6,170 nucleotides of DNA. It comes from JAHJDO01 sp030671985 [NCBI: bacterium] (GTDB lineage Bacteria > JAHJDO01). The stretch covers positions 1 through 6,170 of the forward strand of contig DAOVHI010000087.1 of assembly GCA_030671985.1 (NCBI GenBank). Reading direction: 5' to 3'. The notes under the pieces were generated by a model. That model saw only the letters and a program-made list of their open reading frames with translations. It was not told where the DNA came from and made no database searches. Below, piece by piece: positions 1,016-4,630 of the stretch. The stretch's first letter is position 1, and every line of letters begins with the position of its first letter. The translations under genes were made by a program, and so were the position numbers.

Positions 1016-1966
1016 ATGGATTTAATGAGTACAATTAAAGGGTCTTTGCTGGAGAATTTCTTTCCGAAAGGGTGGGATATGGAGAAGCTGGATAAATGTT
1101 GTAATAATCCACCTGAAACAATCACTGACCGTCAGGATTGGTGGAACAAAGAATTTAAACCTGTTTCATGCGAAACATTAGGTGACTTTAATGCGATGAT
1201 GGGTCATGAAATAGCTGTAGAGATTAGAAAGGCAAGAGATGAAGGCAGGAAGATAGCGTTTATATTGCCTGTTGGTCCGATGGGAATGTATAAGTGGGCT
1301 GTTTACTTTCTAAAAGAATGGAATGTGGATTGCAAACATGTTTATGGGTTCAATATGGATGAATGGAGCGATAAAGACGGAAATACATTGCCTTCCGATA
1401 ATGTAGGAGCTTTTCAAAATGCAATGCAGCAAGCTTTTTATGGTCCGCTCGGAGATCTAACTGTCCCAAAAGACCAACGAAATTTTGCGCTCAAGAATGT
1501 TCTTCCAACATATTCAGAAAAGATAGAACGGCTCAAAAGTGATGGGGCAAAGCTTGTAGTTGTTTTTGGCATTGGACGAGTATTTCATATTGCTTTTTGG
1601 GAACCGCACTTTGCCGCAGAATTCTCTTCTGAAGAGGAATGGAATAAGCAGTGTTACAGATTGGGAGCAAAACTGCATCCTTTGACCGTAGAACAGAATG
1701 CGGTAACCAGTTTTAAGAGCCGCACAACTCTGGTTCCATGTTTTGCCAATACAATTGGACCGGGGCTATTTCTCAAAGCTGATAAAATAATCGGCGGATG
1801 TGACGGAACACTGGGAAGAGGAATGATGTGGCAGGGATTGTCTCTCTGGGTTACTTTAAGACATGGTCCAAGTATCTGGATCCCTTCCAGTTTTATGCCA
1901 ACTTTAGCCGGAAAGCTCTTTTTTCTTAAAGAACTTGCAGGCCCTCTTGTAGCAGAATGCAATTGA
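1016..1966 (+). CDS. Divergent glucosamine-6-phosphate deaminase (NagB)-like protein
   Basis: This 316-residue protein has the NagB/6-phosphogluconolactonase fold. Landmarks are [11 protein letters not shown] at 84-94 (the phosphate-loop region, E. coli LPTGGTPM), GFNMDEW at 111-117 (E. coli FNMDEY, with Asp115 matching catalytic Asp72) and [13 protein letters not shown] at 185-197 (E. coli GVGNDGHIAFNEP). His191 and Glu196 match catalytic His143 and Glu148. Asp141 is replaced by Val189 and the next Gly by Phe190, and the phosphate loop is two residues shorter. Near the C-terminus, [11 protein letters not shown] (283-293) resembles the final strand region of the family. About 50 extra N-terminal residues make it longer than E. 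coli NagB (266). An AAGGGGA ribosome-binding site at 1002-1008, overlapping the upstream stop, supports the ATG at 1016. It is probably translated together with the preceding deacetylase. The fold is clear; true glucosamine-6-phosphate deaminase activity is doubtful, and isomerase or lyase action on a related sugar is possible. Confidence 0.8.
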
Positions 1967-2088: not shown

Positions 2089-3588
2089 ATGAAAAAGAAA
2101 TTATTCATAAGCGTAGACGCCTATGAGGTAAGAACAGTATTATTGGAAGAAGGTGTGTTAGCTGAATTTGCTGTTGAACGGATGGGAGAAAGACGCATTG
2201 CGGGTAATATTTACAAAGGCATAGTGAAAGCGGTATTGCCGGGCATACAATCTGCATTTGTAGATATAGGGTTGGAGAAAAACGGATTTTTACACGTTAA
2301 AGATATAGCAACTTCTTCAACAGTGCCGGAGGACGTAGAAGAGTACGGGGGAAATGGTGAAACAATTTCGAAAAGGTCTCACAAAAAAGAGTCTATAACA
2401 GATATACTAGCTAATGGTCAGGAAATACTTGTTCAAGTAATAAAGGAACAATTAGGAACAAAGGGCGTAAAACTATCATCTTTTATTTCCATCCCCGGTA
2501 GATTCTTGGTTTTGATGCCAACAGTTGATCATATAGGGGTATCCAGAAAAATAGATAATCAAAATGAAAGATATCGCTTAAAGGAGATAGTAAAAAAAAT
2601 TAAGCCTGATAATATGGGGCTTATTATTAGAACGGGAGGCGCTGGAAAGACAGAAAAAGAATTCAATGATGAAATTAATTATTTGGTAAGACTTTGGAAC
2701 AAAATTCAAAAAAGAGCAAAAATATCTGATGCCCTGACTGTAGTTTATCAGGAGTACAATTTAATTCACAGACTTGTGAGAGATTTATTGCATCCCGATA
2801 TTCAGATGGTGCTAATAGATTCAAAGGATGAGTATAAGAAGTTGAGACAGTTCGTTGGCGGTGTACTGCCTGAAATGAAATCTCGGATAAAATTATATAA
2901 TAAAAAACAAAAGTTATTTGATAAATATAATTTAGAAAAAGAGATAGATAAAGTGTTGCGGAGTAGAGTGAGATTAAAAAGCGGTGGTTGGATATTAATT
3001 GAACAAACAGAGGCTCTTGTTTCTATAGACGTAAATACGGGAAAATATGTAGGAAAAACCTCTCTGGACGATACCATTTTAAAAACTAATCTTGAAGCCG
3101 CTATAGAAATAGCTCGTCATCTCCGTCTCAAGGATATGGGTGGAATTATAATAATTGCTTTTATTGATATGAAGTATGAAAAGCATAAACATGAATTATT
3201 GCAAGTCTTTAAAAATGCCCTAAAAAAGGACAGGGCCAAGACTACAATGGCTCGATTGAGCAAATTTGGTCTTTTAGAAATGACCAGACAAAGAGTTAAA
3301 CAAAGTATCTCGGATTACCTATTCCAAGTTTGTCCTTATTGTAAGGGAAATGGAAATATAAAATCATTGGCAACTACATGTATTGAATTGCAAAGAAAAG
3401 CAGAACAATTATGCGCAACAAGATCAATGAAGACTATTTGGGTAAAAATTCATCCATCTATATCTTCTTACCTCATTAAACATTATAAGAGAACAATGAC
3501 AGGATTGGAATTAACATACAACAAGAAAATCATTTTAGAATCAGATATAAATATGAATGTGGAAGTTTCGGAAATAAAATGTTTGTAA
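2089..3588 (+). CDS. rng: Ribonuclease E/G family protein (RNase G-like), catalytic Asp346 equivalent replaced by Ala
   Basis: The 499-residue length fits RNase G (about 490). Domains in order: an S1/RNase H-like N-terminal part with GNIYKGIVKAVLPG at 39-52 and QSAFVDIGLEKNGFLHV at 54-70; a KGVKLSSFISIPGRFLVLMP stretch at 125-144; RTGG at 181-184, the 5'-monophosphate sensor region; and a DNase I-like catalytic domain with VSIDVNTGK at 311-319. Asp314 and Asn316 match RNase E Asp303 and Asn305. TNLEAAIEIARHLRLKDMGG (333-352) follows. CPYCKGNG at 415-422 is the Zn-link. The family endonuclease cuts single-stranded AU-rich RNA and matures rRNA, tRNA and mRNA. In the segment IIIIAFIDM (353-361) the expected D-F-I-D is A-F-I-D: Ala357, codon GCT at 3157-3159, replaces the second metal ligand (RNase E Asp346). 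The reading frame is otherwise intact. An AGGA at 2077-2080 supports the ATG. Activity is uncertain unless this base is an error. Confidence 0.93.
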   Translation: MKKKLFISVDAYEVRTVLLEEGVLAEFAVERMGERRIAGNIYKGIVKAVLPGIQSAFVDIGLEKNGFLHVKDIATSSTVPEDVEEYGGNGETISKRSHKKESITDILANGQEILVQVIKEQLGTKGVKLSSFISIPGRFLVLMPTVDHIGVSRKIDNQNERYRLKEIVKKIKPDNMGLIIRTGGAGKTEKEFNDEINYLVRLWNKIQKRAKISDALTVVYQEYNLIHRLVRDLLHPDIQMVLIDSKDEYKKLRQFVGGVLPEMKSRIKLYNKKQKLFDKYNLEKEIDKVLRSRVRLKSGGWILIEQTEALVSIDVNTGKYVGKTSLDDTILKTNLEAAIEIARHLRLKDMGGIIIIAFIDMKYEKHKHELLQVFKNALKKDRAKTTMARLSKFGLLEMTRQRVKQSISDYLFQVCPYCKGNGNIKSLATTCIELQRKAEQLCATRSMKTIWVKIHPSISSYLIKHYKRTMTGLELTYNKKIILESDINMNVEVSEIKCL

Positions 3589-3671: not shown

Positions 3672-3992
3672 GTGCAAGCGGTTATTGTTGCGGGAGATAA
3701 GCAGTTCAAGGTTAAAGAGGGAGATGTTATAAAAATAGATAAGGTTGAAAAGGATGTTGGCGATAAGATTAATTTTGACCCTATTCTTGTTTCTGATAAT
3801 GAAACTGTGACCATGGATAAAGGTCATATGGAGAATGCCAAGATTTCAGGAGAAGTTATCCTGCATGGCAAGGGAAAAAAAATCATAGTGTTTAAAAAGA
3901 AAAGACGCAAGGGCTACAGCCGTAAGATGGGACATAGACAGTTTTTTACAGAAGTTAAGATTGGAAAAATATCGCTTGGAAAGACGGGGTAA
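3672..3992 (+). CDS. rplU: Large ribosomal subunit protein bL21
   Basis: The 106-residue product matches L21 along its full length (E. coli 103). The N-terminus QAVIVAGDKQFKVKEGDVI (2-20) corresponds to the usual YAVI..GGKQ..V..GD.. pattern. The basic C-terminal half carries KKIIVFKKKRRKGYSRKMGH (69-88), then RQFFTEVKI (89-97), the signature 23S rRNA-binding segment. L21 binds 23S rRNA in the large subunit and depends on L20 for assembly in E. coli. The start is GTG at 3672, chosen because it aligns with the family N-terminus and has a purine-rich GAAAGGGG (3657-3664) at good spacing. The usual partner rpmA (L27) does not follow; a membrane protein gene starts 5 bases after the stop. rng next to rplU is a common bacterial arrangement. 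Confidence 0.96.
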   Translation: MQAVIVAGDKQFKVKEGDVIKIDKVEKDVGDKINFDPILVSDNETVTMDKGHMENAKISGEVILHGKGKKIIVFKKKRRKGYSRKMGHRQFFTEVKIGKISLGKTG

Positions 3993-3997
3993 AAAGA

Positions 3998-4630
3998 ATG
4001 CGTGATAGAAAATTAGAAGCAGATATTATTGCCCTTAAGGAGTTTATTCAGATGTGGATCACATTTGGAGACTTTCTGAAACAAGGCGAAGAAAAATCAA
4101 CTTCTATAGGCGCAGAAAAAAAACAGGGATGTATGGAGTCCAAGAGTCATCTCGCCCGTAAGTATGAGTCAATAAGCGGTGTGCTTGAAAAACAATACAG
4201 TCCTGATAACAAAATATCAAGTATTCTTAGCCAATCTGTTTCGTTGAGTAATCTAGCTGCCTCAGATATGCAATCCAGAAAACTGGAAAACGACTGGCAT
4301 GTTTCCTATATATTTCTAAATAAACGATTAGGAGGACTTGAAGGCAAAAGGGATGATCTTGCAAAGATAAGTATGCTGACGACTGTAATTATCCCAAAAA
4401 TCAAAAGAAGCTTAATTAAGTTTTTCATTGTTGTAATACTAGCAGCTATTTTGACAGCAGGAGCTTATATTGGATATAGAGTGCTTTTTGTGAAAACGGT
4501 TGTTGTTGAACCTGACGAAAGAACAAATGTTCAAGGACAAGCAGAAGATAGCGTTGTTGAGGATGCGTCTATTATTGCCAATGTTAGAAATGCATTAGAT
4601 CGAATAGCGGACAAGATAAAGAAAAATTAG
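3998..4630 (+). CDS. Unrecognised single-pass membrane protein
   Basis: I do not recognise this 210-residue protein. The N-terminal ~138 residues are hydrophilic, rich in Lys, Glu and Ser, probably mainly helical, with one Cys (45) and no catalytic motif I can identify. A basic stretch PKIKRSLIK (133-141) leads into one hydrophobic segment, about 142-160 (FFIVVILAAILTAGAYIGY), followed by a 50-residue acidic then amphipathic tail ending in ALDRIADKIKKN. Positive residues before the segment suggest the N-terminal part is cytoplasmic and the tail extracytoplasmic. The gene starts 5 bases after rplU with a G-rich ribosome-binding site (ACGGGG, 3984-3989) inside the rplU end, and its stop is 15 bases before the IHF/HU gene. 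It is therefore almost surely co-transcribed with both and is a real gene. Function is unknown; a scaffold or anchoring role is only a guess. Confidence 0.72.
   Translation: MRDRKLEADIIALKEFIQMWITFGDFLKQGEEKSTSIGAEKKQGCMESKSHLARKYESISGVLEKQYSPDNKISSILSQSVSLSNLAASDMQSRKLENDWHVSYIFLNKRLGGLEGKRDDLAKISMLTTVIIPKIKRSLIKFFIVVILAAILTAGAYIGYRVLFVKTVVVEPDERTNVQGQAEDSVVEDASIIANVRNALDRIADKIKKN

Follow-up and report, generated by a model that had tools for sequence, protein, structure and literature searches.

According to the accessible portions of the relevant papers, the closest described counterparts of the gene analysed here are E. coli RNase E proteins altered at Asp346. The D346N enzyme is reported to show low but detectable cleavage at micromolar enzyme (PMC2948425), and it binds pieces of tRNA precursors with Kd values of 19 and 56 nM (PMC9841416). 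D346C is described as cleaving with Mn2+ only and as binding one metal per subunit (PMC8522691), and a cited statement in PMC12399333 has it that plasmids carrying D303C, D346C or both fail to sustain an rne deletion. A system of a different kind is archaeal RNase W (FAU-1), where an RNase E-like S1/5'-sensor part is used without an E-type catalytic centre; in the available text of PMC11602121 this protein has no RNase E catalytic domain and relies on a DUF402 domain instead, and we came across no closer natural precedent for such an arrangement. A search of an open-access library for a natural inactive RNase E/G homologue or pseudoenzyme found none, and D346A was not named among the literature matches listed, whereas D346N or D346C are; neither result implies absence from print.

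The stretch of DNA analysed here (the window, 6,170 bases) is an entire contig of a 1.25 Mb genome that is 92% complete and distributed over 152 contigs, a fragmentation that is part of what points to a metagenome assembly. It contains a member of the RNase E/G family with the following features.

2089-3588, + strand: RNase E/G family gene, 499 aa, of RNase G-type length, with no E-like C-terminal scaffold
3028-3030, + strand: Asp314, aligned with E. coli Asp303, the first metal ligand, kept
3034-3036, + strand: Asn316, aligned with E. coli Asn305, kept
3118-3120, + strand: His344, aligned with E. coli Gln333; Gln in 108/111 homologues; 39 nt from codon 357
3157-3159, + strand: codon 357, GCT (Ala), aligned by phmmer with E. 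coli RNase E Asp346, the second catalytic metal ligand
3166-3168, + strand: Asp360, aligned with E. coli Asp349; Asp in 109/111 homologues
3331-3342, + strand: CPYC Zn-link motif with Cys415 and Cys418, kept in the homologue alignment

By descent the protein belongs to the Rne/Rng family, as it scores 491.7 bits against TIGR00757 (cut-off 325.95) and 342.7 bits against PF10150 (cut-off 25.5), and E. coli RNase E structure chains match it at E ~1e-91 (phmmer). The ribonuclease G equivalog NF008689 is its best-scoring equivalog, at 464.8 bits, which is below the NCBI cut-off of 594. S1, RNase E/G and thioredoxin-like domains were recognised by profile search. The CPYC motif represents the Zn-link (CPxC), its E. 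coli counterparts being Cys404 and Cys407. As S1/5'-sensor residues we used E. coli F57, F67, K112, S140, R141, R148, R169 and T170, and in the alignment all of these are kept in the window protein, as Phe57, Phe67, Lys125, Ser152, Arg153, Arg161, Arg181 and Thr182. The residues from F67 onwards are named as such in the available parts of PMC8522691 or PMC11602121.

From Asp314 to Ala357 the phmmer alignment with the E. coli RNase E chains is gap-free, and one of these chains (8b0j) has Cys in the Ala357 column. A preliminary description of this DNA had placed Asp314 on Asp303 and Ala357 on Asp346, as the alignment with these chains confirms, and had regarded Asn316, the CPYC motif (415-418) and the full 499-residue frame as intact, which is also correct. 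Of the residues expected in an active RNase E/G, the Asp303-equivalent ligand and Asn305 are thus represented by Asp314 and Asn316, and the Asp346-equivalent ligand is replaced by Ala357.

The window protein resembles E. coli D346N and D346C in that the same residue is replaced and the other landmarks are kept. Those are laboratory mutants, whereas this is a natural gene as assembled, known from sequence alone, and its Ala has no ligand atom, unlike the Asn or Cys of the mutants; in this position we would expect Ala to do no less damage than Asn. RNase W, as described in the available text (PMC11602121), lacks the catalytic domain altogether, whereas that of the window protein is full-length, minus one metal ligand. 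As written, the protein would fold and would retain the residues of the Zn-link, the 5'-sensor and the S1 domain; since those of the last two are unaltered, RNA binding should persist. By analogy with the E. coli D346 mutants, its hold on Mg2+ would be poor and its cleavage very weak.

Ala357 is very unusual and is private to one assembly. Column 357 is Asp in 29 of 29 homologues of a first alignment (30 proteins with that of the window) and in all 111 distinct homologues of a larger, non-random sample that includes the four congeners; in the same sample Asp314 is found in 111/111, Asn316 in 110/111 and Asp360 in 109/111. The sample goes back to 119 loci (29 from a first search, the best 30 of a wider search and 60 more, including six picked for their low scores in the first search), from which 8 proteins identical over the compared region were dropped; 302 of 385 genomes matched, better scores were favoured, and the weakest matches (e.g. 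G199, G365) were left out. Within residues 134-403, 34 columns are at least 97% conserved, and the window protein departs from these at Q344H, R348K and D357A, of which R348K is not private, as Lys also occurs in congener G001. The other 29 proteins agree throughout at 37 columns, from which the window departs twice (Q344H and D357A) and the four congeners never (the G001 protein being partial); other rows of the alignment have 0 to 3 departures, such as K>R and L>I, but also G>A, W>F and P>T.

Like D357A, the change Q344H is private; it affects an almost invariant column, and the two lie 13 residues (39 nt) apart. Two of the 37 invariant columns would fall this close together by chance with a probability of 0.084.

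His344 is a potential metal ligand found only here, and this raises the question of a rearranged but still active site, in which the metal would be held by Asp314 together with Asp360 or His344, or in which a different metal would be used. That a change of ligand can be tolerated is suggested by E. coli D346C, which works with Mn2+ according to the accessible part of PMC8522691. However, Ala provides no ligand, such a swap is seen in 0 of 111 homologues, and a residue three positions along the strand should face away, so that we consider a rearranged site very unlikely. Compensation by Asp360, as proposed in the preliminary description, was rejected, since this residue is near-invariant next to Asp357 throughout the family (109 of 111 homologues) and is not new.

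The copies in the four congeners (G001-G004; Rne/Rng by TIGR00757) are orthologous and syntenic to the window gene and 86-87% identical to it. Three of them are full-length and equal it in length within one residue, while that of G001 is cut by a contig end. Where the window has Ala357 (codon GCT) and His344, all four have Asp (codon GAT) and Gln. Upstream of the gene lie tRNA-Leu(CAA) (1975-2061), a divergent NagB-like gene and a PIG-L deacetylase gene; downstream come rplU, an unnamed 210-aa gene, an HU/IHF gene and purM, an order common to the window and the congeners as far as the congener contigs extend.

These data bear on the earlier suggestion that the gene is an RNase G paralogue, which did not hold. 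The genome (as a 92%-complete assembly) yields one RNase E/G match and no second rng/rne gene, and this sole copy is the syntenic ortholog of the congener genes. Where a congener's copy is full-length (three of the four), it is likewise the one full-length match in that genome; in G004 a further fragment of 55 residues lies at the end of a contig. A divergent paralogue, with the true enzyme encoded in the missing 8% of the genome, would be compatible with the incompleteness of the assembly, but given the synteny, the 86-87% identity and the single full-length match in each of those three congeners, we regard it as extremely improbable.

Of several possible explanations, we favour one that we hold to be very probable, namely that this is an ordinary RNase G-type gene in which the Asp346-equivalent was changed to Ala by a private, very recent or artefactual change. 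The gene itself would be the endoribonuclease gene of RNase G type that the genus ordinarily carries and passes on vertically. Of the three readings offered in the preliminary description (a paralogue, an active site rearranged around Asp360, or a single-base error or isolated mutation), the evidence favours the last, as the close relatives have Asp at this column in 4 of 4 cases, an outcome that the preliminary description itself had named as the mark of an error or isolated mutation. Two points weigh against our explanation: Q344H lies beside the active site, and two such changes could mean real functional drift; and the genus comparison comprises only five genomes, so that Ala357 may exist in other strains.

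A long history as a pseudogene was rejected in view of the intact frame and of a dN/dS that is no higher than among congeners. For the RNase gene, pairwise dN/dS between the window and its congeners is 0.091-0.099, and among the congeners 0.081-0.148. Since the former values do not exceed the latter, there is no sign of long relaxed constraint on the gene. In the same comparison of the window with the congeners, values are 0.086-0.091 for PIG-L, 0.107-0.111 for the NagB-like gene, 0.084-0.109 for purM and 0.043-0.084 for HU/IHF, and higher for rplU (0.178-0.216) and the 210-aa gene (0.192-0.225). If all constraint ended with the loss of the Asp, the change dates to within about 0.005-0.02 synonymous substitutions per site, a figure obtained from the G002 pair only, with about 1150 nonsynonymous sites assumed and w = 0.081-0.10 before the change and 1 after it. 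This interval is a few per cent of the lineage branch, if that branch is taken as half of the synonymous distance of 0.72 between the window and G002. An RNA-binding protein under retention would escape the dating argument, and a normal dN/dS is expected of a pseudoenzyme too, which is a further point against our explanation.

The sole RNase E/G of this organism may be pictured as a retained protein that has become RNA-binding or regulatory, perhaps with Q344H as a second step; we think this unlikely. On this reading it would protect or deliver 5'-monophosphate RNAs, and RNase Y would do the cleaving. In its favour, the residues of the 5'-sensor and S1 domain are kept, purifying selection is strong across the gene, and RNase Y is present. 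In the accessible parts of the literature there are also the binding of tRNA-precursor pieces by E. coli D346N (PMC9841416) and the precedent of RNase W, with its RNase E-like RNA-binding part lacking an E-type catalytic domain (PMC11602121). On the other hand, a settled pseudoenzyme would not need Asp314, Asn316 and Asp360, all of which are kept, and Ala357 is confined to one genome, with 0 of 111 other homologues showing it.

RNase Y, with its HDIGK motif, scores above cut-off in the same genome, as does PNPase, the gene for which appears to be split over two contigs. RNase J is above cut-off in none of the five genus genomes, the two weak matches in G002 and G003 falling below it. As RNase Y is present and RNase J was not found over the cut-off, RNase Y could carry the initiation of mRNA decay, and it is through RNase Y that the loss of RNase G activity would be tolerated.

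Within our preferred explanation of a private change in an ordinary gene, a real recent loss-of-activity allele and an error of the consensus or a chimera of strains would have roughly even odds, the real allele being slightly favoured. The idea of a generally error-rich assembly finds no support in three control genes from this genome, each compared with 29 proteins, in which departures were found at 0 of 50 (purM), 0 of 67 (RNase Y) and 0 of 90 (PNPase) invariant columns. This lack of any sign of careless assembly counts against the error alternative, although a local error in the RNase gene would still be compatible with it. The contrast between 0/207 control columns and 2/37 in the RNase gene (Fisher p = 0.022) is biased, as the gene was chosen for Ala357; with Ala357 set aside, 1 of 36 invariant columns departs, which is non-informative.

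One further feature includes the codon in question.

3025-3188, + strand: stretch unusually close to G001, including codon 357; 13/164 sites differ, against 71/397 downstream

The difference from the downstream region is post hoc (Fisher p = 0.0026), and the G001 contig begins at this point. Relative to G004, 18 of 200 sites differ in 2889-3088, compared with 122/797 upstream (p = 0.022) and 70/397 downstream (p = 0.0048), again post hoc. A mosaic relation of 2889-3188 to G001 and G004 is possible; such a pattern would result from a consensus that is chimeric as well as from related strains having recombined.

Ala357 is probably a one-genome oddity in an ordinary gene and not a new kind of enzyme. 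Where a single draft assembly shows one disrupted catalytic residue that none of the relatives read shares, the reads should be checked before functional claims are made. Should Ala357 prove real and fixed, it would offer a natural experiment on what an RNase E/G does once it no longer cleaves, in a cell equipped with RNase Y.

Some minor observations concern the surroundings of the gene. G004 has two different contig ends over the NagB-rng region, one in L043 (G004:C32, 6133-10064) and one at the start of L041 (G004:C105), and one of these ends carries roughly 1.6 kb of additional sequence separating the NagB-like gene from tRNA-Leu; the G004 assembly is likely to be a mixture of strains. The divergent NagB-like protein of the window (1016-1966), which adjoins the PIG-L/BshB1-like deacetylase gene, has no Pfam match at 1e-3 and scores 36 bits against the nagB model, far below the cut-off of 236.9. 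In the region 3672-4630, rplU is not followed by rpmA, L27 being encoded on another contig (C8), and the 210-aa gene occupies that place. This gene, with no significant Pfam or NCBIfam match and no match in the G004 stretches compared, has counterparts in G001, G002 and G003.
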